A stretch of 64,000 bases of DNA from Parvicella tangerina (GTDB taxonomy: Bacteria; Bacteroidota; Bacteroidia; Flavobacteriales_D; Parvicellaceae), in NCBI RefSeq assembly GCF_907165195.1, contig NZ_OU015584.1, positions 3,730,978 to 3,794,977 on the forward strand, given 5' to 3'. Positions 41,536-56,704 of the stretch are shown one piece after another. Every line of letters begins with the position of its first letter. Position 1 is the first letter of the stretch. The notes below the pieces were generated by a model, which saw nothing but the letters and a program-made list of their open reading frames with translations, searched no databases and was not told where the DNA came from. The translations under genes and the position numbers were made by a program.

Positions 41536-44500
41536 ATGAGAAACTTTCTATTTCAAAAAACACTAATTGCAATAGTAGTAGCATTAGCAATTACTACATC
41601 TGCAAACGCACAGGTGATTAAGACTTTTACTCAACGAAGTTCAAGTTATACACCTTCCAAATTGATCTACAATATACGTGGTGATTTTACCATGATCGGC
41701 AACACCAACCTTACACTTCAAAGCTATGGTAATTACACAAACAATAGTAATAATATAATGGAGTATGTTGATGTTGACGGTGATCCAAACACTTTCAACT
41801 CCTCTTCTGCAACATTAGAATTTTCGACAGAAAACGGTGCAATCCCAGAATGCTCGAACATCATTTATGCAGGTCTTTATTGGACCGGTCGATCCCATGA
41901 CGGAAGTTCTAGTCCAGAAGAGTTTGACGTAACCAAAGGTGGTGTTACAAAGACATTCAATAAACGAAAAATTTCATTAAAAGGTCCTGGACAAAGTACA
42001 TACACCTTATTTGAGGCAAACCCCGGTAATATTTACTATCCAGATGGTGTTAACGGTAATATGTACTCAGCCTATGTTGAGGTTACTGATTATGTCAGAA
42101 ACAATGGAATCGGTGAGTACTTTGCTGCGGATATGGCTATTTTAGAGGGGAATGGTGGCGCTACTGGATATTATGGCGGATGGGGAATGATCGTGGTTTA
42201 CGAGAACTCCAAAATGAACTGGCGAGACGTAACTATTTTCGATGGACACGCCTATGTAAAAGGAAATTCAACAATAAATTATGATTTACCTGTAAGTGGA
42301 TTTCATACGGTTCAGAGCGGTCAAGTCAACATGAAACTTGGTTTGATGGCTGGAGAAGGAGATGTTGGAATCTCAGGTGATTACTTCCGAATAAGAGATT
42401 GGCAGGATAACTCATGGGTAACCCTGAGTCATTCAGGAAATTCAACTAGTAATTTCTTTAACAGTTCGGTAAATACTGGAGGAAATCCAAGAAACCTCAA
42501 TCTGCAAAACAATACAGGAGTTGACATTGCCATGTTTGATATCCCAAATACAGGAAATTCTGTGATTACCAATAACCAAACTTCAACTACTTTTAGGTAC
42601 GGTTCTACTCAAGATACTTACATCATATTTTGTATTGCGATGTCTGTCGATGCTTACATTCCTGATGTTGAGGCATTGATCTCTGCTGAATATATCAATG
42701 GAGTACCTGCTAGTGGAACAGTCACAGCAGAACCAGGTGATACGATCGAATATACTCTACAAATCACTAACCCTGGTACGGAAGCAATTAATGATCTGGA
42801 AATCATTCTTCCATTACCTTATACAACGGACTATTTAAGTGGTAGTTTATCTACGAGCGTTAACTTCACACCGTTACCATCTCCAAATGATGCGCATTTT
42901 GACCCTTTACTAGGGCCAACAGGATCGATCGTATGGGACTTTGGAACTTTACCATTGCCACCGACTGGATTTCCAGATTCTGTTCTTGCAGAGATCTCTT
43001 TTCAATTCGTAGTTACTCAAAACTGTCAGATCCTTACCAACCCAGACTGTCCTCCCCAAGTAGTGCTTTCTGGAGGTCATACAACTGGTGTAGGTGCAGT
43101 ATCAGGCTCAAGTTTCGATCTTCCATTTATTCAGGGATACGAAACCTCTGGTATTTGCATAGGCGAACCTATTAGTGACCCACTTGTCATGGAAATTGAC
43201 GCAGCTCAATTTGTTGTAGATAGTTGTAATAATGTTGGGAATATTAGAGACTTCGTGTTCTGTAATTATGAGGATGCAACCATTCCTTTTGATTCTGTAG
43301 CAAGCTTATTTCCTGACGGACTAAGGTTTTACAACACCAACAATGTAACTCCATCGTCTATTGAATACGATGATACTAACCCTTTCCCAGCAACACCCGG
43401 AACAAGTGTCTATTTCGCGATTCCAGAAGGTTATTCATCTTGTTATTATACCTTTTATTTAACCGTACAGGATCCGATCATTACCTATACAGTAGTTTCG
43501 GAAAATGAGTCATGTATAGGTGAAGAGGATGGTGAAGTTGACCTTACTATTCTAGGTGGAATCACTCCGATCACTTATGATTGGACAGGGCCTTCTTCTT
43601 ACAGTTCTACCAATGAAGATATTACATCTTTAGGAGAGGGGATGTACTACATCACCATAACAGATAGTCTCGGATGTCAAGCTTCCGATAGTGCAGAAGT
43701 AGTTACCATTCCTGATAATACTGACCCTTCTTTAGTGTGTCCATTAGACATCAATGTAAACAATGACCTTGGTGTATGCGGTGCGAATGTTTCTTATACC
43801 ACTCCTGTTGGTACAGACAACTGTCCTGGAGCAACAACTGTTATGTTACAAGGGCTTGCCTCTGGGAGTTTGTTCTCTCTTGGAACAACACTTGTAGAAT
43901 ATGAAGCAACTGATCTTGCCGGGAATACCGCTACCTGTTCTTTCAATGTGACGGTAACAGACAATGAAGATCCTGTAGTTACTTCTTGTGCTGCGGATGT
44001 GACAGTAGATGCAGATCCTAGCTCTTGTGCTGCTACCGGTGTAAGTTTAGGGACACCTACAGTAACCGATAATTGTGGAATTGCAACTACAACTAACGAT
44101 GCTCCTAGTTCATTCCCGGTTGGTACAACTACCGTAACATGGACCATTACAGATGTGAATGGAAACGATGTGACTTGTTCACAATCCGTAACTGTCAACG
44201 ACACACAAGATCCAACCATCACGTGTCCAGCTCCGGTAACAACTACTGCGGATGCTGGTGTATGTTATGCGTCTGGTGCGAGTTTAGGTTCTCCAGTGAC
44301 CAATGACAACTGTGGAGTAGCTTCTGTGACCAACGATGCGCCTACTAACTTTAATGTCGGAACGACTACCGTAACATGGACCGTAACCGATGTTAACGGA
44401 AACACAGCTTCATGTACACAGTCTGTAACGGTAACCGATGATGAAGATCCTATCATTACTTGTCCTTCTGACATCTCCCTTAAAACTACTCTAGGGAATT

Positions 44501-47500
44501 GTTCTGTTGATGCTTCATTAGTAAGTCTAGGAAATCCTTCTACTTCAGATAACTGCGGTATTGCTTCTACAGTAAACAATGCTCCTGCTACTTATAATGT
44601 TGGAACAACGACCGTAACCTGGACCGTAACGGATGTGAATGGTAATACAGCTACTTGTCCGCAAGTGGTAACCGTAACAGACAATGAAGATCCTGTAGTT
44701 ACTTCTTGTGCTGCGGACGTAACAGTAGATGCAGATCCTAGTTCTTGTGCTGCTACAGGTGTAAGTTTAGGGACACCTACGGTAACCGATAATTGTGGTA
44801 TCGCAACCACAACTAACGATGCACCTAGTTCATTCCCTGTTGGATCAACTACAGTAACATGGACCATCACAGATGTGAATGGAAACGATGTGACTTGTTC
44901 GCAATCCGTAACTGTAAATGATACGCAAGATCCAACTATTACGTGTCCAGCTCCGGTAACAACTACTGCTGATGCTGGTGTATGTTTTGCGTCTGGTGTG
45001 AGCCTAGGTTCTCCGGTGACCAATGATAATTGTGGAGTAGCTTCTGTGACCAACGATGCGCCAACCAACTTTAATGTCGGTACGACTACTGTAACATGGA
45101 CCGTAACGGATGTGAATGGGAACACTGCTTCCTGTACACAATTAGTGACAGTAAATGACAATCAAAACCCTACGATCACTTGCCCTGGAAATGTTCAAGT
45201 ATTCAACGAATCAGGACTATGTGAAACTACTACCACAACGATTAGTTTGGGGAATCCATCTACTGCTGATAATTGTGGCATCGCTTCTACAATAAATAAT
45301 GCTCCAACCACTTTCAATGTAGGTACTACAAATGTTGTTTGGACGACAACCGATGTCAATGGAAACACAGCGCAATGTTCTCAAACAATTACGATAGTTG
45401 ATAACCAAGGACCAACAGTGATCAATTGTGCACCTAATGTAGTTGATTCTGTAGACACAGGAATTTGTGGTAGCTCAACTGTTTCTCTTGGAACGCCAAC
45501 AGCTACAGACAATTGTGGTATTGCAAGCATGACTAATGATGCTCCATCATTGTTCCCTGTTGGAAATACTACGGTAACTTGGACGATAACAGATGTGAAT
45601 GGAAACAGTGTTACTTGTACACAGGTGGTTACAATAATCGATGATGAACTTCCGTCAATAACTTGTCCATCAACAATTGTTGTAGATGCGGATTCAAACT
45701 TGTGTTCTGTTTCAGAAGTAACCTTAACACCGCCAACCGTTAACGACAACTGTGGTGTTGCTTCGATCACCAATAACGCTCCAAACATATACCCTGTAGG
45801 AACAACAGTTGTTACTTGGATCGCAACAGATATTAATGGAAACAGAGACACATGCTATCAAGACATCGTTGTAGAGGATAATGAAAACCCTGTTTTTACA
45901 AGCTGTCCTGTAGACACCAGTTCGTGTAACCCCGTCCTATTTTATCAGCTTCCTTCTGCTACGGACAATTGTGGTGTTTCTAATCTTAGTTTAATATCAG
46001 GTTTCGCTCCTGGCGACACATTCCCAGTAGGTACCACAACAGTTATCTACGAATTAGAGGATATTCATAGCAACTTGTCCTATTGTACGTTTGATGTCAC
46101 TATACATCCACTACCAGTAGTTTCGTTGACTGATGAGGATGTGAGTTGTAACGGATTTGACGATGGGGGAATCACTGCTAATGTATCAGTAGGTACAGCT
46201 CCATTTGATTATTCGTGGAATAATGGTGATACAACTAGCGTAATCGATAGTCTACAACCAGGGATATATGACGTTCTAGTTACAGACATATATGGATGTG
46301 AAAGAACTGCCAGCTCAACAATTACAGAACCAGACCTATTAGCTCTAAGCTATGCGCAACAGAACATCAGTTGCTACAATCTTTCCGATGGAAGTATTGA
46401 CGTAACTGTGATCGGGGGAACTACTCCATACAGCTACAATTGGAGTAATGGAGCTAACTCGCAAGACATCACTCAAGTTGCCTCAGGTGAGTACGAAGTT
46501 GTCGTAACTGATCTTCAGGGCTGTAGTGATTCCCTATCGATTGAGATCACACAACCAGATAGCCTATTCGTTACTGCTTCGATTATAGATGAGATCTGTA
46601 GTGGGTCAAATGGTTTAATTGATGTAACTGTAACTGGCGGTACGTCTCCATTCCTTTACGACTGGTCAACTGGAAGTACCACTCAGGATCTTGAAAATGT
46701 TCCAGCTGGAATCTATTCTCTGGATGTTATGGATGCTAATGGGTGTACAGTAAGTTTCTACGATACAGTAGACACTTATCAGATCATGGACGTTAATGGA
46801 ATCCTTACACAACCTCTTTGTTTTGGTGACACAAACGGCATCATTGAAATAGAAGTAGTAGATGGAACCAGTCCTTTTGAGTTTGCGTGGAACACAGGAG
46901 ATACAACTCAAACCATTTCAGACCTCGTTTCAGGATTGTATGAAGTGCTGATCACAGATGCCAATGGATGTACACAGTTAGTTCAGTACAATTTGAATGA
47001 ACCAGATTCTTTGGATCTTGATCTATACAGTCCAAATCCACTATTAGATTACAACGTAAGTGGTTTTGGAGCAACAGATGGAGAAATTGACCTAAGTATT
47101 TATGGAGGTTCAGGTAACTACGACATCCTCTGGAATACGGGTGACACGGATGAGGATCTTTATGATCTGGGGGCTGGGTTCTATTCGGTTACTGTCACAG
47201 ACATCAATGGATGTATCGCTGTTGATACTATTACCTTAACTGAACCATTCGATTTGGCTATTCCTTCTGGGTTTACACCCAACTTCGATGGATTCAACGA
47301 TTATTTTGTTGTTCGAGGAATTGATGTTTTCCCCGATAATAAACTTGTTGTCTTCAACAGATGGGGAAATGTTGTTTACGAAACCGAGGGTTATGAAAAC
47401 ACATGGGATGGAACTAGCAATAATGGTGAAGCATTACCTGATGCCACCTATTATGTGATTCTAACCATTCACTCACCAGTAGAAATAGAATTGAATGGAT

Positions 47501-47526
47501 TTGTTGATCTAAGAAGATCACGCTAA
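41536..47526 (+). CDS. Giant T9SS surface protein with HYR and SprB repeats (1996 aa)
   Basis: Signal peptide 1-26 (LIAIVVALAITTSANAQ). Residues about 30-370 are a beta-rich region of the type found in large surface proteins, followed by a DUF11-like segment (GDTIEYTLQITNPGTEAIND) near 400. One SprB-type repeat is near 655-720, ten HYR units of about 80 residues run from about 727 to 1530, then five SprB repeats (pattern …NGDTT…GIYDVLVTDIYGC) to about 1900. The last 90 residues are a type B (CHU_C/gliding) T9SS sorting domain (FTPNFDGFNDYFVVRG, VFNRWGNVVYE). Predicted cell-surface adhesin or gliding protein. It heads an operon with PorP/SprF 18 bp downstream. Confidence 0.92.
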   Translation: MRNFLFQKTLIAIVVALAITTSANAQVIKTFTQRSSSYTPSKLIYNIRGDFTMIGNTNLTLQSYGNYTNNSNNIMEYVDVDGDPNTFNSSSATLEFSTENGAIPECSNIIYAGLYWTGRSHDGSSSPEEFDVTKGGVTKTFNKRKISLKGPGQSTYTLFEANPGNIYYPDGVNGNMYSAYVEVTDYVRNNGIGEYFAADMAILEGNGGATGYYGGWGMIVVYENSKMNWRDVTIFDGHAYVKGNSTINYDLPVSGFHTVQSGQVNMKLGLMAGEGDVGISGDYFRIRDWQDNSWVTLSHSGNSTSNFFNSSVNTGGNPRNLNLQNNTGVDIAMFDIPNTGNSVITNNQTSTTFRYGSTQDTYIIFCIAMSVDAYIPDVEALISAEYINGVPASGTVTAEPGDTIEYTLQITNPGTEAINDLEIILPLPYTTDYLSGSLSTSVNFTPLPSPNDAHFDPLLGPTGSIVWDFGTLPLPPTGFPDSVLAEISFQFVVTQNCQILTNPDCPPQVVLSGGHTTGVGAVSGSSFDLPFIQGYETSGICIGEPISDPLVMEIDAAQFVVDSCNNVGNIRDFVFCNYEDATIPFDSVASLFPDGLRFYNTNNVTPSSIEYDDTNPFPATPGTSVYFAIPEGYSSCYYTFYLTVQDPIITYTVVSENESCIGEEDGEVDLTILGGITPITYDWTGPSSYSSTNEDITSLGEGMYYITITDSLGCQASDSAEVVTIPDNTDPSLVCPLDINVNNDLGVCGANVSYTTPVGTDNCPGATTVMLQGLASGSLFSLGTTLVEYEATDLAGNTATCSFNVTVTDNEDPVVTSCAADVTVDADPSSCAATGVSLGTPTVTDNCGIATTTNDAPSSFPVGTTTVTWTITDVNGNDVTCSQSVTVNDTQDPTITCPAPVTTTADAGVCYASGASLGSPVTNDNCGVASVTNDAPTNFNVGTTTVTWTVTDVNGNTASCTQSVTVTDDEDPIITCPSDISLKTTLGNCSVDASLVSLGNPSTSDNCGIASTVNNAPATYNVGTTTVTWTVTDVNGNTATCPQVVTVTDNEDPVVTSCAADVTVDADPSSCAATGVSLGTPTVTDNCGIATTTNDAPSSFPVGSTTVTWTITDVNGNDVTCSQSVTVNDTQDPTITCPAPVTTTADAGVCFASGVSLGSPVTNDNCGVASVTNDAPTNFNVGTTTVTWTVTDVNGNTASCTQLVTVNDNQNPTITCPGNVQVFNESGLCETTTTTISLGNPSTADNCGIASTINNAPTTFNVGTTNVVWTTTDVNGNTAQCSQTITIVDNQGPTVINCAPNVVDSVDTGICGSSTVSLGTPTATDNCGIASMTNDAPSLFPVGNTTVTWTITDVNGNSVTCTQVVTIIDDELPSITCPSTIVVDADSNLCSVSEVTLTPPTVNDNCGVASITNNAPNIYPVGTTVVTWIATDINGNRDTCYQDIVVEDNENPVFTSCPVDTSSCNPVLFYQLPSATDNCGVSNLSLISGFAPGDTFPVGTTTVIYELEDIHSNLSYCTFDVTIHPLPVVSLTDEDVSCNGFDDGGITANVSVGTAPFDYSWNNGDTTSVIDSLQPGIYDVLVTDIYGCERTASSTITEPDLLALSYAQQNISCYNLSDGSIDVTVIGGTTPYSYNWSNGANSQDITQVASGEYEVVVTDLQGCSDSLSIEITQPDSLFVTASIIDEICSGSNGLIDVTVTGGTSPFLYDWSTGSTTQDLENVPAGIYSLDVMDANGCTVSFYDTVDTYQIMDVNGILTQPLCFGDTNGIIEIEVVDGTSPFEFAWNTGDTTQTISDLVSGLYEVLITDANGCTQLVQYNLNEPDSLDLDLYSPNPLLDYNVSGFGATDGEIDLSIYGGSGNYDILWNTGDTDEDLYDLGAGFYSVTVTDINGCIAVDTITLTEPFDLAIPSGFTPNFDGFNDYFVVRGIDVFPDNKLVVFNRWGNVVYETEGYENTWDGTSNNGEALPDATYYVILTIHSPVEIELNGFVDLRRSR
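43961..44440 (+). repeat. HYR pair, copy A of a 720-bp-spaced internal duplication
   Basis: Encodes HYR units 2 and 3. 44681-45160 is a near-identical copy 720 bases downstream: in the first 80 bases I count about four differences, mostly synonymous. The third unit of the block (44440-44680) is more diverged. Suggests recent tandem expansion of a three-unit block. Confidence 0.85.
44681..45160 (+). repeat. HYR pair, copy B of the internal duplication
   Basis: Partner of 43961-44440; encodes HYR units 5 and 6. The two copies differ only in scattered bases (for example VGTTT/VGSTT and CYASGAS/CFASGVS). Together with the neighbouring units it makes long open frames on the opposite strand that are artefacts of repeat composition. 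Confidence 0.85.
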
Positions 47527-47544
47527 TAAGATAAAACTAGAAAT

Positions 47545-48477
47545 ATGAGATCTCTAATTATATTTTCAACGATTACCATCTCTATGCTTCTAGGCATAAA
47601 GACGGTAACACAACAAGAAGCCATGGCGAGCCAATACATGTTCAATGGGTTGTTTGTAAATCCAGCATACGCTGGGAGTCACAAATTCTTTTCAACTACA
47701 CTAGGGTTTAGAAAACAATGGGTGGCAGTAGAAGGCGCTCCGCAAACCATGGTGGCATCAATAGACGGTCCTTTAATGGACAATAAAATGGGAGTTGGAC
47801 TGGTTGTAGCCAATGATCAAATTGGTGTATCGAGAAATACAGATATTGTTGCAAATTACGCCTATAATATCAAATTAGGTGAAGGCAAAATGGCTTTTGG
47901 GTTGAAAGCTGGTTTTTCGCAGTACAAGGCAACGGTGTCAGATCTTACCTATTGGGATCAAGAAGATCCTATTTATAGCTCTGATCTAGTTGGACAAACC
48001 ATTCCAAGATTTGGATTTGGTGCATACTATCATGTTCCTGCCAAATGGTTTGCTGGACTTTCTATTCCAACATTGGTAGCGTATCAAAAAGATCACAAAT
48101 TCAATCTAAATGTTCATGATGCATCATTTTTAAGAAGGCATTATTATTTGATGGGAGGATACATATTCACGATTGATGACAAGTGGAAAATAAAGCCCTC
48201 AACGCTCATTAAATATGTAAAATCAGCGCCTGTTCAAGTAGATATTAATTGTAATGTATTCTTCAAAGACATGATTATTGCGGGACTCTCATACCGAACT
48301 GGTGATGCTATGGTTGCTATTGTGCAGTATCAAGCCAATCAGCAGTTCAGAGTCGGGTATGCCTATGATTACACGCTATCCCAGCTAGGTGATTATTCAA
48401 AAGGGTCTCACGAGATTATGGTTGGATTTGATTTTGGCAAAGATGTCCCAACTGTGCGAACTCCAAGATTCCTCTAA
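47545..48477 (+). CDS. PorP/SprF-family T9SS outer-membrane protein
   Basis: 310 residues. Signature of the family: QEAMASQYMFNGLFVNPAYAGS at the N-terminus (first part only shown as MFNGLFVNPAYAGS), then GFRKQWVAVEGAPQTM, and a C-terminal barrel strand region ending GFDFGKDVPTVRTPRFL. SprF-type proteins are encoded directly after the SprB-like substrates they help to export or anchor, as here. The last ten codons are duplicated at 51760-51790, at the left edge of the second repeat copy. Confidence 0.94.
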   Translation: MRSLIIFSTITISMLLGIKTVTQQEAMASQYMFNGLFVNPAYAGSHKFFSTTLGFRKQWVAVEGAPQTMVASIDGPLMDNKMGVGLVVANDQIGVSRNTDIVANYAYNIKLGEGKMAFGLKAGFSQYKATVSDLTYWDQEDPIYSSDLVGQTIPRFGFGAYYHVPAKWFAGLSIPTLVAYQKDHKFNLNVHDASFLRRHYYLMGGYIFTIDDKWKIKPSTLIKYVKSAPVQVDINCNVFFKDMIIAGLSYRTGDAMVAIVQYQANQQFRVGYAYDYTLSQLGDYSKGSHEIMVGFDFGKDVPTVRTPRFL

Positions 48478-50080
48478 ACGATAGAAAATGAAACTCATAA
48501 AATACATCTTTTTATTCTTGATCGTTGCACTTCTTGCTTCATGTAATTCAACCTATTATTTCAAAAAGGCTGATAAACAATTTAATTTGGAACGATACGG
48601 AAAGGCAATTCCTTTTTACGAAAAAGGGCTTTCAAAAGAACGTAATATCGATGCACTTCAAAATCTAGCAGAATGTCATGTTGCTAACAATAGAAAAGAC
48701 GAAGCTATTCCGCTTTTAGAAGAAGCGTTAACCTTAGGAGAGGTAAATCCTAGAACGTTTTTTATTTTGGGACAGTCCTACCTTTCAGAAGGTAAGTACG
48801 AAAAGTCAATCGACTTTTTGAGTAAATACTTAGAAAGGATGCCGAATGATGTTGTTGCTCAAATGCTTCTTGCGTCTGCTTACTCAATTGAAGATCGTTT
48901 TAGAGACACTACTCTTTACACCTTAAACAGTATTGACATCAGCGAATTTGAAACCGTTCCTAGAGTGGAATGTTCAGACTGTTACGACTGTTCAGAAGAA
49001 ACTCACCAAGAAAATAGAAGAACTGAATTCAAGGTTAAGAAAAAATAAATACGAAATATTACGTAAAAGAGACCTGCTTCAAATATGTAGTTTTGAAAAA
49101 AATTACATGATGAAAAACCTATTTTTAATTACACTCAGTTTTTGCCTGTTACTCTCTGGCACTAATTACTACTCACAATCTATTGACAAAGAAGTTACTT
49201 TTGAGCTAGACAAAAAAGCCAAAAGAGGCAAATTGGCCAACGTAGAAATTGACAGTCAAGGAAACTATAAACTCTACTACATTACCAAAACAAAGAGTAA
49301 AAAAATCAAATTTCAAATCTATACGTTCGACCCCAACTTCAGTTTTTTAGGGAAAGTTGATGATGAACTTGAACTTGAAAAAGTGAAGTCTAAGTATAGC
49401 TGGTTCAATTTTAAAGGAGAGCTTTATTCTGTGGTTGGAATTTCGTTAAATTGGAACCCTGCAATGCCCCTTAAGTTGAAAAAGAAAGAAACGTCTTACC
49501 ACTATGATTGGCTACTATTAGGTTACCACAAAAGAGTGAAAGTACTAGAGAAAGTGAAGCCTCGTACGGACGATGGTATGAAGTATTTTGCCAAAGGATA
49601 TTTTGAAGATGATGTTACTGGTGACATTTACATCATTGTTGGGGTTGCTCCAGGTCTAGTAAGTAAGGAAGCTGGTGCTCAGTATACAGACCTTAGATTA
49701 ATCAAGTTTGATTGGGACTTAAATAAAGTTGCCGAGACGAAGATTCCATTTGAATACGGTCAGGAGGTTGCTTTTGCAAAAGGTTTTGCTGAGCCAGATC
49801 CAGAAAACCCTACTGCAGTAGGATTCAGCGGTGGAGTCGTTGTCTTCGCTCCTACAAAAGTGAAAGGATTAGACATTCCAGTTGATGAGAATAAAGGAAA
49901 CTTCACTTTCGTAGAATTTGACAAAGACCTTAACATAATTACGCGTGAATCATTTGATAATCCATCTCCAGGTTGGACGATCGAGGATATGCAGTGGGCA
50001 GAAAATAGTGATGGCAAAAAAGACATTTACCTGTATGGTCCTGCCGCTTTTGGGAAAGACAAGTACTATCTGTATGCAAA
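48447..50080 (+). repeat. 1634-bp direct repeat, copy 1
   Basis: Runs from the last ten PorP codons, across the TPR lipoprotein gene, to codon 325 of the secreted-protein gene. Copy 2 is 51760-53393, at a constant offset of 3313 bases. I found no difference between the copies where I compared them, and both encoded protein segments are identical. Confidence 0.93.
48488..49048 (+). CDS. TPR lipoprotein, copy 1
   Basis: 186 residues. Lipobox in IFLFLIVALLASCNSTYYF; TPR-like repeats follow (QFNLERYGKAIPFYEKGL, ALQNLAECHVANNRKDEAI, TFFILGQSYLSEGKYEKSI). The C-terminus is Cys- and Glu-rich (VECSDCYDCSEETHQ). Such TPR lipoproteins commonly sit beside PorP/SprF genes in T9SS loci and may aid assembly. 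It follows PorP by 10 bp. The identical copy lies at 51801-52361. Confidence 0.88.
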   Translation: MKLIKYIFLFLIVALLASCNSTYYFKKADKQFNLERYGKAIPFYEKGLSKERNIDALQNLAECHVANNRKDEAIPLLEEALTLGEVNPRTFFILGQSYLSEGKYEKSIDFLSKYLERMPNDVVAQMLLASAYSIEDRFRDTTLYTLNSIDISEFETVPRVECSDCYDCSEETHQENRRTEFKVKKK

Positions 50081-50246
50081 AGATTTGCGGGAAGAAGTCG
50101 AGAAATTAATTGTTGAAAGTGATGTTTTTAACATAAGAAAAGTACTGGTTTCTAAAAAAGCCATAGAAATTGGTTTCGAAATAGAAGATGAAGAGTTAGC
50201 AGAACAACTAGAGAGATTAATTGATAAAATAAAAAAAGCTAACTAA
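49107..50246 (+). CDS. Secreted protein, copy 1: chimeric, with foreign C-terminal tail
   Basis: 379 residues from ATG 49107, chosen because it starts a signal peptide (MMKNLFLITLSFCLLLSG). Residues 1-326 are identical to copy 2 (52420-53991). From Leu327 the sequence changes to an unrelated helical, highly charged tail (LREEVEKLIVESDVFN…EELAEQLERLIDKIKKAN) and stops after 53 residues, against 197 more in copy 2. The join lies at 50080/50081 and keeps the frame. The tail looks like the C-terminal end of some other coiled-coil protein. Whether the chimera is functional is unknown; the original family is not one that I recognise. Confidence 0.85.
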   Translation: MMKNLFLITLSFCLLLSGTNYYSQSIDKEVTFELDKKAKRGKLANVEIDSQGNYKLYYITKTKSKKIKFQIYTFDPNFSFLGKVDDELELEKVKSKYSWFNFKGELYSVVGISLNWNPAMPLKLKKKETSYHYDWLLLGYHKRVKVLEKVKPRTDDGMKYFAKGYFEDDVTGDIYIIVGVAPGLVSKEAGAQYTDLRLIKFDWDLNKVAETKIPFEYGQEVAFAKGFAEPDPENPTAVGFSGGVVVFAPTKVKGLDIPVDENKGNFTFVEFDKDLNIITRESFDNPSPGWTIEDMQWAENSDGKKDIYLYGPAAFGKDKYYLYAKDLREEVEKLIVESDVFNIRKVLVSKKAIEIGFEIEDEELAEQLERLIDKIKKAN

Positions 50247-50259
50247 GTTGAGATAAATT

Positions 50260-50290
50260 CAGTTATAGCGGATTTGTAATCCTGCTGCGG
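50260..50290 (+). repeat. REP-like palindrome
   Basis: Contains ggatt-tgt-aatcc (50270-50282), an exact 5-bp inverted repeat with a 3-base loop, within cagttatagcggatt and cctgctgcgg flanks. Related fragments appear near 50829-50855 (gattttgtaatc) and 51334-51350 (tgttatagcgaatttt), each just after a gene stop in the inserted segment. Confidence 0.4.
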
Positions 50291-50319
50291 AATTATATAA
50301 ACAGGATAAAACAATACAA

Positions 50320-50826
50320 ATGATCAAAACCTTACTTTTTATTGTAACGTTTATTCCGGGCATCAATCAAGGCAATTTAAAACAAACTGATTCTATTGCT
50401 GAAACATGGAATTTGTTGGTCTTTGAAAAAGGCGGATGCTTGGGAGGGTGTCAATATGTTAAAGAGGAGAAAATTGAAAAAAAAGAGGTCCGAACTTTGG
50501 TTTTCAGCCAACAAGCCTGGAAAGACTTTTTAAACAAGGACAAAACCAAACTGACACATTTTTTAATTGGTGAAATGTCAGACACTACCCAGACTAGAAT
50601 TCACACCTGTCCCTTTTTTGAAGCAACAGCCGGAGAAATGGCGGTTTACTCATTACAGCGGATCCATCAAAAAAATTGGTTTGACTTTCCTGAATTCATT
50701 ACTTACAAAGACAGAGAAATGGAAAGTGCAACCGAACAACCGCAGGCGTGGTTGCAAGAGATATTAAAAAACAAAACCCAACGGGAGAAATTAGAAGCAT
50801 TGTATCACAATGAACTGAAAAAGTAA
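50320..50826 (+). CDS. Hypothetical protein with possible signal peptide (168 aa)
   Basis: N-terminus MIKTLLFIVTFIPGINQG is a weak signal peptide. The mature part begins WNLLVFEKGGCLGGCQYVKE, with a CLGGC pair, and is otherwise charged and helical. A second Cys is in THTCPFFEATAG-like context (IHTCPFFEATAG). No family recognised. It occurs only in the inserted segment and has no paralogue in the window. Confidence 0.7.
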   Translation: MIKTLLFIVTFIPGINQGNLKQTDSIAETWNLLVFEKGGCLGGCQYVKEEKIEKKEVRTLVFSQQAWKDFLNKDKTKLTHFLIGEMSDTTQTRIHTCPFFEATAGEMAVYSLQRIHQKNWFDFPEFITYKDREMESATEQPQAWLQEILKNKTQREKLEALYHNELKK

Positions 50827-50989
50827 AACCGAATGCGCAGATTTTGTAATCAATGAGATACAAACATTTTTTTAATTTATAGCCTACTAATTTGAGTCTG
50901 TACTACGGAATATGTCATAATAACATAAAATATAATGATAATATAATGATAAATAGATATATTTGACTCTTAATTATAATAAAAGTAAA

Positions 50990-51289
50990 ATGAAACAAAC
51001 ACCCATAATTTTTTTACTAGCCCTAACATTTGGATTAGCGTCATGTGAAAGTGATAAAGATAAGAGGTTGCAAGATCTTAAATCTGTTGGTTGTAAATTG
51101 ACGGAGTCTTATAGTATTTTGTTAGATAATCCAAACGATGAAGATGCAGGAATGGATTTGATTGGCCTACAGTCAGAAATTGAATCAGGTCTTGAGGAAG
51201 ATACAGGAATAACATTAGAAGACTTGGAGGAGGTTATGGAGGAAGATTGCGATAACGCGAGCTTACTCAAAGATGCTATGAAATATTGA
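50990..51289 (+). CDS. Small acidic lipoprotein (99 aa)
   Basis: ATG 50990 begins a lipoprotein signal (FLLALTFGLASCESDKD). The mature part of about 80 residues is very acidic (EIESGLEEDTGITLEDLEEV) and ends with a short helix. It resembles immunity- or chaperone-sized proteins in size only. A 163-bp AT-rich spacer lies upstream, with repeated aatataatgat units. Confidence 0.7.
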   Translation: MKQTPIIFLLALTFGLASCESDKDKRLQDLKSVGCKLTESYSILLDNPNDEDAGMDLIGLQSEIESGLEEDTGITLEDLEEVMEEDCDNASLLKDAMKY

Positions 51290-51334
51290 TTCAATCTCCG
51301 TTTTGCAGTAGTTCTAATAATTTTGGATGGAATC

Positions 51335-51373
51335 TGTTATAGCGAATTTTATTGAAGCAATTAAAATTCGTAT
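51335..51373 (+). terminator. AT-rich hairpin, possible terminator
   Basis: cgaattttattg (51343-51354 region) pairs with caattaaaattcg around a 3-base loop, with one unpaired A. It lies between the convergent small lipoprotein and the minus-strand gene at 51401, where a bidirectional terminator would be expected. There is no clean T-run. Confidence 0.35.
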
Positions 51374-51400
51374 GGAAGAAATGAATCTTAAAATAGTTCC

Positions 51401-51757
51401 TTAATTCTCTGCTGGTTCCAGTCCGAAAAATTCCTCTGCTGAACGTATTACCGAACCCGGCATATCGTGTCCGGCCCAACCTTTTTTATTGCCATCAATA
51501 AAAACATAGCCAAATCCTTCGGGTTGCAGTTCATCTTCAATTTGCTTGATTTCTTTGTCAGTCAATCCATCGTGGTATACATTGGCAAAAAGGACCTGTG
51601 GATGGTTATTGGTGAAATATTCAGAAACGTCATTCACAAACCATCCCCAATCTTCGCCTCCCTCTTCGGCATAAATTTCTTCATCTTCGGGTTTGGCATA
51701 AATTAAAATCATAGGACGTCTTTTGTTATTAATGCGGATGTCTATTGCCGAATGCAT
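51401..51757 (-). CDS. Hypothetical soluble protein (about 118 aa), 5' end at the repeat junction
   Basis: Acidic protein (MILIYAKPEDEEIYAEEGGE, WGWFVNDVSEYFTNN, GYVFIDGNKKGWAGHDMPG) with no recognised family. An ATG lies at 51757-51755, two bases from the left edge of repeat copy 2 (51760). The frame stays open into the repeat to 51820, but those 21 codons are antisense to the TPR lipoprotein gene and are not native. The original 5' end or promoter is therefore probably lost. Confidence 0.6.
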   Translation of the reverse strand: MHSAIDIRINNKRRPMILIYAKPEDEEIYAEEGGEDWGWFVNDVSEYFTNNHPQVLFANVYHDGLTDKEIKQIEDELQPEGFGYVFIDGNKKGWAGHDMPGSVIRSAEEFFGLEPAEN

Positions 51758-51759
51758 GG

Positions 51760-53393
51760 CCCAACTGTGCGAACTCCAAGATTCCTCTAAACGATAGAAA
51801 ATGAAACTCATAAAATACATCTTTTTATTCTTGATCGTTGCACTTCTTGCTTCATGTAATTCAACCTATTATTTCAAAAAGGCTGATAAACAATTTAATT
51901 TGGAACGATACGGAAAGGCAATTCCTTTTTACGAAAAAGGGCTTTCAAAAGAACGTAATATCGATGCACTTCAAAATCTAGCAGAATGTCATGTTGCTAA
52001 CAATAGAAAAGACGAAGCTATTCCGCTTTTAGAAGAAGCGTTAACCTTAGGAGAGGTAAATCCTAGAACGTTTTTTATTTTGGGACAGTCCTACCTTTCA
52101 GAAGGTAAGTACGAAAAGTCAATCGACTTTTTGAGTAAATACTTAGAAAGGATGCCGAATGATGTTGTTGCTCAAATGCTTCTTGCGTCTGCTTACTCAA
52201 TTGAAGATCGTTTTAGAGACACTACTCTTTACACCTTAAACAGTATTGACATCAGCGAATTTGAAACCGTTCCTAGAGTGGAATGTTCAGACTGTTACGA
52301 CTGTTCAGAAGAAACTCACCAAGAAAATAGAAGAACTGAATTCAAGGTTAAGAAAAAATAAATACGAAATATTACGTAAAAGAGACCTGCTTCAAATATG
52401 TAGTTTTGAAAAAAATTACATGATGAAAAACCTATTTTTAATTACACTCAGTTTTTGCCTGTTACTCTCTGGCACTAATTACTACTCACAATCTATTGAC
52501 AAAGAAGTTACTTTTGAGCTAGACAAAAAAGCCAAAAGAGGCAAATTGGCCAACGTAGAAATTGACAGTCAAGGAAACTATAAACTCTACTACATTACCA
52601 AAACAAAGAGTAAAAAAATCAAATTTCAAATCTATACGTTCGACCCCAACTTCAGTTTTTTAGGGAAAGTTGATGATGAACTTGAACTTGAAAAAGTGAA
52701 GTCTAAGTATAGCTGGTTCAATTTTAAAGGAGAGCTTTATTCTGTGGTTGGAATTTCGTTAAATTGGAACCCTGCAATGCCCCTTAAGTTGAAAAAGAAA
52801 GAAACGTCTTACCACTATGATTGGCTACTATTAGGTTACCACAAAAGAGTGAAAGTACTAGAGAAAGTGAAGCCTCGTACGGACGATGGTATGAAGTATT
52901 TTGCCAAAGGATATTTTGAAGATGATGTTACTGGTGACATTTACATCATTGTTGGGGTTGCTCCAGGTCTAGTAAGTAAGGAAGCTGGTGCTCAGTATAC
53001 AGACCTTAGATTAATCAAGTTTGATTGGGACTTAAATAAAGTTGCCGAGACGAAGATTCCATTTGAATACGGTCAGGAGGTTGCTTTTGCAAAAGGTTTT
53101 GCTGAGCCAGATCCAGAAAACCCTACTGCAGTAGGATTCAGCGGTGGAGTCGTTGTCTTCGCTCCTACAAAAGTGAAAGGATTAGACATTCCAGTTGATG
53201 AGAATAAAGGAAACTTCACTTTCGTAGAATTTGACAAAGACCTTAACATAATTACGCGTGAATCATTTGATAATCCATCTCCAGGTTGGACGATCGAGGA
53301 TATGCAGTGGGCAGAAAATAGTGATGGCAAAAAAGACATTTACCTGTATGGTCCTGCCGCTTTTGGGAAAGACAAGTACTATCTGTATGCAAA
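51760..53393 (+). repeat. 1634-bp direct repeat, copy 2
   Basis: Exact counterpart of 48447-50080. It begins with the last ten codons of porP without the rest of that gene, and continues into the full-length form of the secreted-protein gene. It therefore seems to keep the native right-hand junction, while copy 1 keeps the native left-hand junction. Confidence 0.93.
51801..52361 (+). CDS. TPR lipoprotein, copy 2
   Basis: Same 186 residues as 48488-49048, with the same ribosome-binding context. Here it is not preceded by an intact porP gene, so it has lost its presumed operon promoter and may be silent or read from the inserted segment. The inserted gene immediately upstream points the other way. 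Confidence 0.88.
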   Translation: MKLIKYIFLFLIVALLASCNSTYYFKKADKQFNLERYGKAIPFYEKGLSKERNIDALQNLAECHVANNRKDEAIPLLEEALTLGEVNPRTFFILGQSYLSEGKYEKSIDFLSKYLERMPNDVVAQMLLASAYSIEDRFRDTTLYTLNSIDISEFETVPRVECSDCYDCSEETHQENRRTEFKVKKK

Positions 53394-53991
53394 GGATGCG
53401 GCTAAGAAGAAGTCGATTCAAGTGATGAAAGTTTCATCTAGTAAGGTTGAATACTTAACAGAAACTACCTTAGAAGATATCGAAGCTGTGAAGACTATGC
53501 CCGCTGATAATAAAAAGACAACAGACTATAATGGAAAGGTAAAGCCGTCATTTAACTTTACACAACTTTCATCCGGAAACATTCTCCTCTATGGGCAATA
53601 CTATAATGAAGGCAAACCTTCTGACTACATGGCCTTGGAGTTTGACAATAGCGGAAAACTTGTAGCTAACTACACAAGAAATATGGAGACTAAAATCAAG
53701 GTGCCTTTTACTTGTGTGAATAGTGTCTCTGAGACATCAAATGGTGTGTATTGGATTTCTTATGAAGCTGAAGGGGATGAGACCACAAAATATATTGTTC
53801 CTGTAATTACCAAGCTGGACACTAAAGCGAAAAAAGTGAATGACCCAATGGTACTGGGTAAAGACGGGAAAAAACAATTATACTACGTGGACCCTTCGTA
53901 CCCGTTACTAAATATCTCACAGACACAACAAGTTTATTTCGGAAGTGACAAAAAAGGAAAGAACATTTGGTTCTGCAGAGTGAATCTGTAA
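52420..53991 (+). CDS. Secreted protein, copy 2: full-length form (523 aa)
   Basis: ATG 52420 starts the signal peptide (LFLITLSFCLLLSGTNYYS). The mature protein has repeated beta segments with Lys, Asp and aromatic residues (YSWFNFKGELYSVVGIS, FVEFDKDLNIITRESF, NILLYGQYYNEGKPSDYMAL, QQVYFGSDKKGKNIWFCRV), like a beta-propeller but with no family I can name. A propeller-like protein next to PorP/SprF fits a T9SS-associated periplasmic or surface role. A good terminator follows at 54014-54046. Residues 1-326 are shared with the chimeric copy 1. Confidence 0.85.
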   Translation: MMKNLFLITLSFCLLLSGTNYYSQSIDKEVTFELDKKAKRGKLANVEIDSQGNYKLYYITKTKSKKIKFQIYTFDPNFSFLGKVDDELELEKVKSKYSWFNFKGELYSVVGISLNWNPAMPLKLKKKETSYHYDWLLLGYHKRVKVLEKVKPRTDDGMKYFAKGYFEDDVTGDIYIIVGVAPGLVSKEAGAQYTDLRLIKFDWDLNKVAETKIPFEYGQEVAFAKGFAEPDPENPTAVGFSGGVVVFAPTKVKGLDIPVDENKGNFTFVEFDKDLNIITRESFDNPSPGWTIEDMQWAENSDGKKDIYLYGPAAFGKDKYYLYAKDAAKKKSIQVMKVSSSKVEYLTETTLEDIEAVKTMPADNKKTTDYNGKVKPSFNFTQLSSGNILLYGQYYNEGKPSDYMALEFDNSGKLVANYTRNMETKIKVPFTCVNSVSETSNGVYWISYEAEGDETTKYIVPVITKLDTKAKKVNDPMVLGKDGKKQLYYVDPSYPLLNISQTQQVYFGSDKKGKNIWFCRVNL

Positions 53992-54013
53992 TTATTTCAT
54001 AAAGCTTGGTTTA

Positions 54014-54046
54014 AGAGTGTCGTTTTGAAAAAAGCGGCACTTTTTT
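54014..54046 (+). terminator. Rho-independent terminator after the T9SS operon
   Basis: agtgtcgtttt pairs with aaaagcggcact (allowing G-U pairs and one bulge) around a short loop, followed by tttttt at 54041-54046. It overlaps the last codons of the convergent DUF2064 gene. Confidence 0.75.
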
Positions 54047-54650
54047 ATTCCTCAATGAGACCTCTTAACTCATTAGGGACTTCTTCTAAGGAATTTACTT
54101 GTGAAAGAGTCGGCAAAATATAATGGGTCTTGTGTTCTTTCTTGATTTCAAGCAGTAAATCTAGCACGACATTCTCATGTCCCCATTCTTTATTCAACAA
54201 GAGCTCACTGGAGAGGTCATTCATTCCCAAAAGATAGACACCACCCTCTTTGGTAGGACCTATTACAAAATCGTTCTGATCTAGCGCTCTGAAAGCTTCT
54301 TCTATAATTCCTGCATTCATCTCATAGCAATCACAACCCACAATAACAACCTTATTCGCCCATTCACCGAAACTGGTTTTTGAAGCGTTATACATCCGTT
54401 CTCCTTCGTCCTCTCCCTTCTGAATGGACTTCTCAAAGTGACCATCATCAAAACTATCACTGTTGGATATAAAATCTGAGTAATAACATTTTCGCTGGGC
54501 CATAACTGTTTTCGCAACACTTGCCGTATGTTTGACCAAAGCTTGATAGATGACCAAGGCATTTTCATCACCGATTTCTGCAGCAAGACGTTCCTTTACC
54601 TGTCCTTCGACTGCATTCTCACAAAATATGATCAGGTGATTAATTGTCAT
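54045..54650 (-). CDS. DUF2064-family glycosyltransferase-like protein
   Basis: 201 residues with a nucleotidyltransferase-like fold: HLIIFCENAVEGQVKERLA at the N-terminus, VVIVGCDCYEMNAGIIEEAF in the DXD-region position, and FVIGPTKEGGVYLLGM. These match the TIGR04282/DUF2064 family, whose function is not settled. Here DCYE stands where relatives often have DxP. It follows metG by 2 bp and is probably in one transcript with it. Confidence 0.85.
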   Translation of the reverse strand: MTINHLIIFCENAVEGQVKERLAAEIGDENALVIYQALVKHTASVAKTVMAQRKCYYSDFISNSDSFDDGHFEKSIQKGEDEGERMYNASKTSFGEWANKVVIVGCDCYEMNAGIIEEAFRALDQNDFVIGPTKEGGVYLLGMNDLSSELLLNKEWGHENVVLDLLLEIKKEHKTHYILPTLSQVNSLEEVPNELRGLIEE

Positions 54651-54652
54651 AA

Positions 54653-56704
54653 CTATCTTATTTCTCCACCAGGTCCCATATCTTTAGTTGGAGATACAAA
54701 CGACAAGTTTCCGTCCTGATCTTCTGCCATTAAGATCATCCCTTGAGATTCAACTCCTCTAATTTTTCGTGGTGCCAAATTCATCAAAATTGAGACTCTC
54801 TTCCCAACCACCTCCTCAGGAGAATAATGTTCTGCAATACCCGAAACCACAGTTCTCACATCCAGACCTGTATCCACTGTTAACTTCAAGAGTTTATCCG
54901 CTTTCTTTACTTTTTCTGCTGTTTTGATCTCTCCTACTCTGATGTCCATTTTCATGAAATCATCGAATGCTATCTCATCTTTCATCGGTGGAAAATTATT
55001 GGATGGTTGTTTTAATTTATCTAACTGCTCTTCAATCTTCTGGTCTTCGATTTTTGAAAACAGGATTTCTGGTTTATTGATCTCATGATTCGTTTTCATG
55101 AGATTATTCATACCCGCACTTGACCACTTCAGCGGATCGATGTTTAAGAATGAAAACAATTTTTTGGAAGTAAACGGCAAAAATGGCTCAAAAACAATCG
55201 CCAAATTTGCGGTGATCTGCAACGAGATATTAATGATCGTCTTAACCCTATCAGGATGCGTTTTGATCAGTTTCCAAGGCTCCGTATCCGCCAGATATTT
55301 ATTTCCGAGTCTAGCCAGATTCATGGCTTCTGATTGTGCTTCTCTGAAACGAAATGCTTCAATCGCTTTCCCTATTTTTTCAGGAATTGCTTCCAACTCA
55401 TTTATTACCCCCCGGTCGATTTCTTCTAATCCACCTATCGCTGGAACTTTTCCTTCGTAATATTTATGGGTAAGCACAAGCGTGCGATTTACAAAGTTGC
55501 CAAATATATCGGCTAGCTCGCTGTTATTTCTAGTCTGAAAGTCTTTCCATGAGAAATCGCTATCCTTACTTTCAGGGGCAATAGAACATAATACATATCT
55601 CAACACATCTTCCTGACCGGGAAAATCATCTAAATACTCATGTCCCCAAACTGCCCAATTTTTGGATGTACTCAACTTTTGCCCCTCTAAGTTCAAGAAC
55701 TCATTAGCTGGAACATTGTAAGGCAAAATATGATCTCCAAAGAGTTTCAACATAATGGGAAAAATGATCGTGTGAAACACAATATTGTCCTTAGCGAGAA
55801 AATGGATCAAATGTGTATCCTCAGCCTTCCAATAATCCTCCCAATTTTTTCCATTGTCTTCAGCCCATTGCTTGGTAGCAGAAATATAACCTATTGGTGC
55901 ATCAAACCAAACATACAGTACTTTTCCTTCTCCTCCGTCCACAGGCACTTTCACACCCCAATCCAGATCACGAGTCATCGCTCTGGGTTTTAAGCCACCC
56001 TCTATCCAGCTCAAACATTGGCCAATAACCTGATTCCTCCATTCTTTAGGGTAATGATGTTGCTTACCATCTAACACGCCATTTTCAATCCAGTCTTTTA
56101 CCCATGCTTCATGCTCATCCATAGGTAAGTACCAATGTGACGTCTCTTTCAATTCCGGTGTTTTTCCAGACAAAGTAGATTTAGGGTTAATTAAATCAAG
56201 TGGACTAAGATCACTCCCACATTTTTCACACTGATCACCATAAGCTCCTTCATTCTTACATTTCGGGCAAGTTCCAGTGATATATCTATCTGCTAGAAAC
56301 TGTTTGAATTCCGCATCATAATATTGCTCTGTGGTTTTTTTTAAAAACTTTCCTTCTCCCTCTAATTGACTGAAATAACCAGATGCCGTTTCTTTGTGAA
56401 GGTCCGAAGACGTTCTATGATAGATATCAAAGTTAACCCCTAACCTTTCAAAAGTAGAACTGATCATGGTATGGTAGCGATCAACAATATCCTGTGGTGT
56501 TGTTCCTTCTTGTTTTGCCCTTATAGTTATGGCAGCACCATGCTCATCCGATCCACAAACAAACAAGGCGTCTTTCCCGTTTGATTTCAAGTAGCGACTG
56601 TAAATGTCCGCTGGAATGTAAACCCCTGCCAAATGGCCTAAATGAAGCGGTCCATTAGCGTAAGGCAACGCTGCAGTTATTGTATATCTTTTCGGTTGAT
56701 TCAT
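54653..56704 (-). CDS. metG: Methionyl-tRNA synthetase
   Basis: 683 residues: class I synthetase with HIGH motif [10 protein letters not shown], zinc knuckle [18 protein letters not shown] in the connective domain, and KMSKS equivalent KLSTS. The anticodon-binding helical domain follows, then a C-terminal EMAP-II/Trbp111-like tRNA-binding domain ([32 protein letters not shown]). That domain order matches the long, dimeric form of MetG. A TATCTTTG element lies upstream. Confidence 0.98.

Follow-up and report, generated by a model that had tools for sequence, protein, structure and literature searches.

Repeat copies and host genes

A stretch of 64,000 bases from Parvicella tangerina (NCBI RefSeq assembly GCF_907165195.1, contig NZ_OU015584.1), called the window below, carries two identical direct copies of 1634 host bases separated by a 1679-base segment, here named segment F. 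The genome is a single contig of 3,980,026 bases with an estimated completeness of 99.83%, and the window represents bases 3,730,978 to 3,794,977. The locus records either a very recent DNA-joining accident or a genome-assembly error.

The first repeat copy (R1) is located at 48447-50080 and the second (R2) at 51760-53393, both on the forward strand. Base-by-base comparison confirmed the direct repeat claimed by the original prediction, with 1634 of 1634 bases identical at an offset of 3313 bases; identity ends at 48446 and 50081, which are the first mismatches, and the window contains no N bases. The repeat is far above chance expectation. Among 424,000 bases from 22 stretches of the same genome, each searched against itself, the longest other exact direct repeat was 110 bases and was the sole one of at least 100 bases, and no other exact direct repeat of at least 100 bases was found within the window. 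Segment F (50081-51759) has a single genomic occurrence, its only match in the whole 3.98-Mb genome being to itself. Two additional matches in this search came from query ends that overhung into the repeat, one of which extends 40 bases into F, at lower identity, along the native continuation of copy 2.

The repeat begins with the last 10 codons and the stop of an intact porP/sprF-like gene, taken, like the TPR genes that follow, from the open reading frame list (47545-48477, forward strand; PF11751, E=8.5e-79). It then covers a gene for a lipoprotein-like TPR protein with TPR Pfam matches, which is complete in both copies (48488-49048 and 51801-52361, forward strand), and the first part of a gene encoding 523 amino acids. 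This latter gene is native and intact in copy 2 (52420-53991, forward strand), where its product shows 60% identity over residues 6-523 to a homolog in a genome of another family (G046). In copy 1 about 325 of its codons are retained and are fused in frame to a 54-codon tail supplied by F (49107-50246, forward strand). The C-terminus of the G046 homolog matches copy 2 only and not the chimeric copy 1. The junction layout that had been proposed, with the left flank native at copy 1 and the right flank native at copy 2, is thus borne out by a homolog that aligns through the copy 2 C-terminus. Because porP runs intact into copy 1 and the C-terminus in copy 2 is native, the parental order was porP, TPR gene and 523-amino-acid gene, to which R1 and F were added.

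The 523-amino-acid gene was found in 3 of the 60 genomes searched (its own, G046 and, at 27% identity, G049) and is perhaps accessory. By way of comparison, the nearby MetRS gene is present in 33 of 39 family genomes, this one included, at E<=1e-100. In one congener (G001), MetRS and a DUF2064 gene are conserved, and no homologs of porP, the TPR gene or the 523-amino-acid gene were found within 8 kb beyond them; as for the remaining two congeners, one contig stops inside MetRS and the other gave no match. The chimeric and TPR proteins matched PHROGs only weakly (E=0.029; best 0.004), and these matches were not used.

Gene content and origin of segment F

Segment F opens with a frame that lacks its own start (P0001, 54 amino acids, 50082-50246, forward strand), which is probably the 3' end of a donor gene. 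P0001 had no Pfam match at E<=10 and matched PADLOC only weakly (E=0.017 and 0.041). It is followed by an orphan gene encoding 168 amino acids (50320-50826, forward strand), for which Pfam yielded nothing above cut-off and NCBIfam nothing at all, and by a small lipoprotein-like gene of 99 amino acids (50990-51289, forward strand, an ATG frame from the open reading frame list). The last gene, on the reverse strand at 51401-51759, is the C-terminal fragment of a SPOR-domain lipoprotein-like gene that is severed at the F/R2 junction. This fragment (117 residues) has homologs in two metagenome-assembled genome (MAG) records (L017, 45% identity; L018, 41%) and in two genomes of the same order (G700, 49%; G576, 41%). 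Each of these homologs carries about 140-150 extra N-terminal residues, and the similarity continues to the last few residues before the junction. A SPOR domain is present in the N-terminal half of L017 and L018, the two homologs scanned by Pfam, with no other domain. Conserved C-terminal GEDWG, GFGY and HD motifs characterize this family (L017:2262-3047, L018:3370-4161, L071:628-1431), members of which come from one MAG each of Bacteroidetes and Chlorobi and from genomes of this order.

Since the SPOR gene is broken at the right end of F and the left end begins inside an open frame, F has the appearance of a random cut from another chromosome rather than of an element; a gene is probably broken at its left end too. 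Several hallmarks of mobile DNA were sought. Scans of F with Pfam, NCBIfam, PADLOC and PHROGs recognised no gene for replication, mobilisation or recombination. The earlier claim that no recombinase is present holds for the proteins scanned with these four collections and does not extend to every short frame. Within 46000-56000, no tRNA gene, no Rfam family at gathering score and no inverted repeats of at least 30 bases were found (shorter ones were not sought). A transposon or integrase element was rejected because no recombinase gene was found among the scanned proteins, and a tRNA-targeted island because no tRNA gene lies in 46000-56000.

The same evidence bears on one explanation offered by the original prediction, that a 3313-base non-replicating circle, carrying the 1634 host bases together with F, integrated by a single (Campbell-type) crossover. 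The repeat-insert-repeat topology is exactly that of an insertion-duplication. However, the circle would have to contain, beforehand, DNA identical to the host's and joined to F on either side, so that the question is only shifted one step back. Moreover, F has no recognised gene for replication, mobilisation or recombination, no plasmid or phage record matches, and the same 3313-base circle is the expected deletion product of the present structure. Integration of such a circle is consequently improbable. Two alternatives offered alongside it, namely filler DNA within a tandem duplication and a chimeric assembly, suit the evidence better than the circle.

A functional cassette was also considered, in which a duplicated stem, an alternative C-terminus and immunity-like genes would be arranged as in polymorphic toxin loci. 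The alternative 54-amino-acid end is in frame and is followed by the small lipoprotein-like gene, whose 99-amino-acid product has a very weak match to the immunity family BSAP-5i (E=0.072; 30 residues aligned, scoring 13.1 bits where the cut-off is 150). However, the frame would be kept by chance in one case out of three, no toxin or immunity family scored above cut-off in Pfam or NCBIfam and PADLOC gave only the two weak matches cited above, and the right gene of F is a broken SPOR-domain gene. As neither the alternative end nor the genes after it showed a toxin or immunity domain, a toxin cassette was rejected, and a functional cassette appears highly improbable.

The origin of F was addressed through related genomes, as had been proposed, and its proteins were not found in the sampled relatives, with the exception of one weak match riddled with stops. 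The SPOR fragment was found only in its own genome, among 100 relatives and again among 395 genomes of the phylum, and a contig search confirmed 2 of 124 candidates (45% and 41% identity). The 168-amino-acid protein was found in 2 of 100 relatives, one being its own genome and the other the weak match (E=4.4e-4) interrupted by stops; in the contig search, none of 190 candidates was confirmed. The 99-amino-acid protein was found only in its own genome (1 of 60 genomes). Plasmid and phage collections contained no match to F, and in IMG/VR none of 9 and none of 17 candidates were confirmed, although all these collections may omit the genome itself. An alignment of three SPOR-family rows matched 10 of 399 genomes of the order at E<=1e-5, including this one; only this genome, G700 and G576 reached the C-terminal part, and the other seven matches stop at or before model position 149. 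None of the other genes of F was found near the fetched SPOR homologs, the best match to the 99-amino-acid protein covering 28 residues (E=0.033).

A REP-like motif, AGCGGATTTGTAATCC, is located in F at 50267-50282 and occurs once in the genome at no more than one mismatch; weaker look-alikes were seen by eye after the other genes of F. At the same tolerance the motif occurs in 8 of 60 genomes, this one included, and a longer form is found only in this genome among 395 of the phylum, so that the motif was discarded as an uninformative clue to the donor.

The guanine-plus-cytosine (GC) fraction of F is 0.348; 22 of 466 sampled native windows are as low or lower, and in a comparison confined to the 64-kb window F lies below all 142 windows. 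By 5-mer score F ranks 7 of 117 against the 424 kb sampled from the same genome. The composition of F is therefore mildly unusual, and composition alone is insufficient to prove F foreign. Because its proteins were not found in the sampled relatives, one weak match aside, but its composition is only mildly unusual, F is likely, rather than proven, to be foreign to the species.

Proposed joining of two locus copies, or possible misassembly

A host gene is broken at each joint and, at the right joint, a donor gene is broken as well. We propose, with about even confidence, that a very recent, unprogrammed rearrangement, which would be real in cells, linked two locus copies out of register by way of a captured fragment. 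The product would be a tandem duplication of 1634 host bases whose novel joint holds a captured fragment of 1679 bases, apparently from another bacterium. Sister chromatids, for example, could have supplied the two locus copies. At the left joint, one locus copy, ending at 50080 inside the 523-amino-acid gene, would have been joined to the left end of F; at the right joint, position 51760 of the other copy, which falls within the final codons of porP, would have received the right end of F. Long homology is lacking at both joints. The outcome would leave porP and the 523-amino-acid gene intact, the additions being an extra TPR gene, a truncated chimera and remnants of donor genes. Later homologous recombination between the copies would be expected to delete F together with one copy, thereby restoring the parent. 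A single out-of-register event of this kind would explain both joints, the perfect identity of the copies and the survival of an intact set of host genes.

At the R1/F joint, the bases of F just past R1 resemble the native continuation over 40 bases, with a local score of 14 that 18 of 20,000 random pairs attain. It is possible, from this resemblance, that the joint was guided by short imperfect homology. A route for entry may be provided by uptake, as the genome encodes a ComEC-type Competence domain (E=4.4e-60). Under a more specific version of the proposal, a wholly foreign fragment would have been taken up and would have bridged sister copies by illegitimate joints at both ends, producing the duplication and the in-frame chimera in one event. 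We hold this version only tentatively and consider it rather unlikely. If true, such single-event capture would represent a transformation-driven duplication without long homology, seen before recombination erased it.

Several observations weigh against an out-of-register joining through a foreign fragment. The similarity at the R1/F joint was noticed after the fact, and the F/R2 joint shows none (a score at least equal is obtained by 15,878 of 20,000 random pairs). F may instead belong to the species as strain-specific DNA; a k-mer test against the window alone did not separate it (rank 55 of 60), and no donor genome was found in the searches described above. The Competence family is also found in 10 of the 14 control genomes, including Escherichia coli, and the domain is weak evidence of DNA uptake because it is so common. 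No Ku gene was found in the genome, and no obviously selectable gene was seen in F. Illegitimate integration of wholly foreign DNA is very rare. In one study, as far as the part considered here goes, illegitimate integration was rarer than the Tn1 transposition measured there (PMC8116780). Duplications are also lost fast, a rate of 0.018 per cell per generation being given for a 9.2-kb duplication in the portion considered of another report (PMC4432121), so that the presence of a duplication in a consensus needs luck or selection.

The main rival, nearly as likely as joining of two locus copies in the cell, is an artefact of assembly or library preparation. Two contig ends overlapping by 1634 bases could have been joined untrimmed, one of them extended by F as a chimeric tail derived from a different organism in the sample; otherwise, a ligation or amplification chimera could have entered the consensus. 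We rate such an artefact a serious possibility, at somewhat less than an even chance. It would account for the perfect identity of the copies and for a segment that has no relation to other parts of the genome and whose end falls within a gene, and it is consistent with the lack of any recognised element or site. No second structure of this type was found in 424 kb, as one bad join would predict, and one real event likewise.

F, in contrast, was read accurately. The SPOR fragment aligns to its homologs in a single frame with no frameshift and the remaining frames of F are open, and such clean frames, judged on sequence, are unlike an unpolished, noisy read tail, even though an accurate chimeric read would still be compatible with them. 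A chimera would also have to outvote the parental path. Finally, the record ends elsewhere, mid-gene and clean, which argues against a simple untrimmed record end, although a bad join followed by rotation would still fit. When the record end is joined to the record start, one open frame of 533 codons runs across, and no same-strand 31-mer is common to the 12 kb at the beginning and the 12 kb at the end; the chromosome thus appears closed. An untrimmed circular-contig overlap was rejected, as the duplication is not at the record ends, which are clean. The start and the end of the record both lie well inside a single repeat-rich gene (L039:1-490, L040:10910-12000), and the record was therefore not rotated to a gene start.

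Comparison with known rearrangements

The locus is one more member of a set of known rearrangements and is ordinary in kind. Campbell-type insertion-duplication by a suicide plasmid produces a repeat-insert-repeat topology. The topology here is the same, but F has no recognised vector or replicon gene. In Streptococcus pneumoniae, transformation has been described to bridge sister chromatids and thereby generate tandem duplications (Johnston et al. 2013, PMC3784515). As far as the part of that report considered here describes them, these merodiploids are likewise tandem duplications in which two chromatids are joined via an incoming DNA fragment; however, the incoming fragment there shares homology with host repeats and duplications of about 100-900 kb result, whereas the P. 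tangerina locus shows no long homology, covers 1.6 kb and would involve only putative uptake. Homology-free duplication joints have been described in pneumococcus and Acinetobacter, both transformable bacteria (PMC4432121, in part). The patAB duplication and the Acinetobacter amplifications resemble the present locus in having two direct copies and a joint without repeats, but foreign filler, present here, is not mentioned in the portion of that report considered.

Homology-facilitated and double illegitimate recombination (de Vries and Wackernagel 2002; Hulter and Wackernagel 2008; via PMC4437187 and PMC8116780) similarly capture foreign DNA through illegitimate joints, but the parts of these sources considered here do not mention a host duplication that brackets the capture. 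Among the titles seen in the literature on tandem duplication with foreign DNA, none names a case of just this kind.

If the rearrangement is real, it would show how a chromosome can acquire unrelated DNA with no loss of host genes, since the duplication leaves an intact copy of everything and yields a chimeric gene and a spare TPR gene. Such a state would be expected to be short-lived, and catching one would give a direct handle on the frequency of the event. If the locus is instead an artefact, it warns of a spurious duplication and of contaminant sequence within an apparently complete and clean genome.

Apart from R1 and R2, a mismatch-tolerant search of the window found one extra repeat family, in an adhesin-like frame of 1996 amino acids (41536-47526) directly upstream of the porP/sprF-like gene. 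Its 300-base copies have a spacing of 720 bases and are located at 43948, at 44668 (92% identity) and at 45388 (61%).

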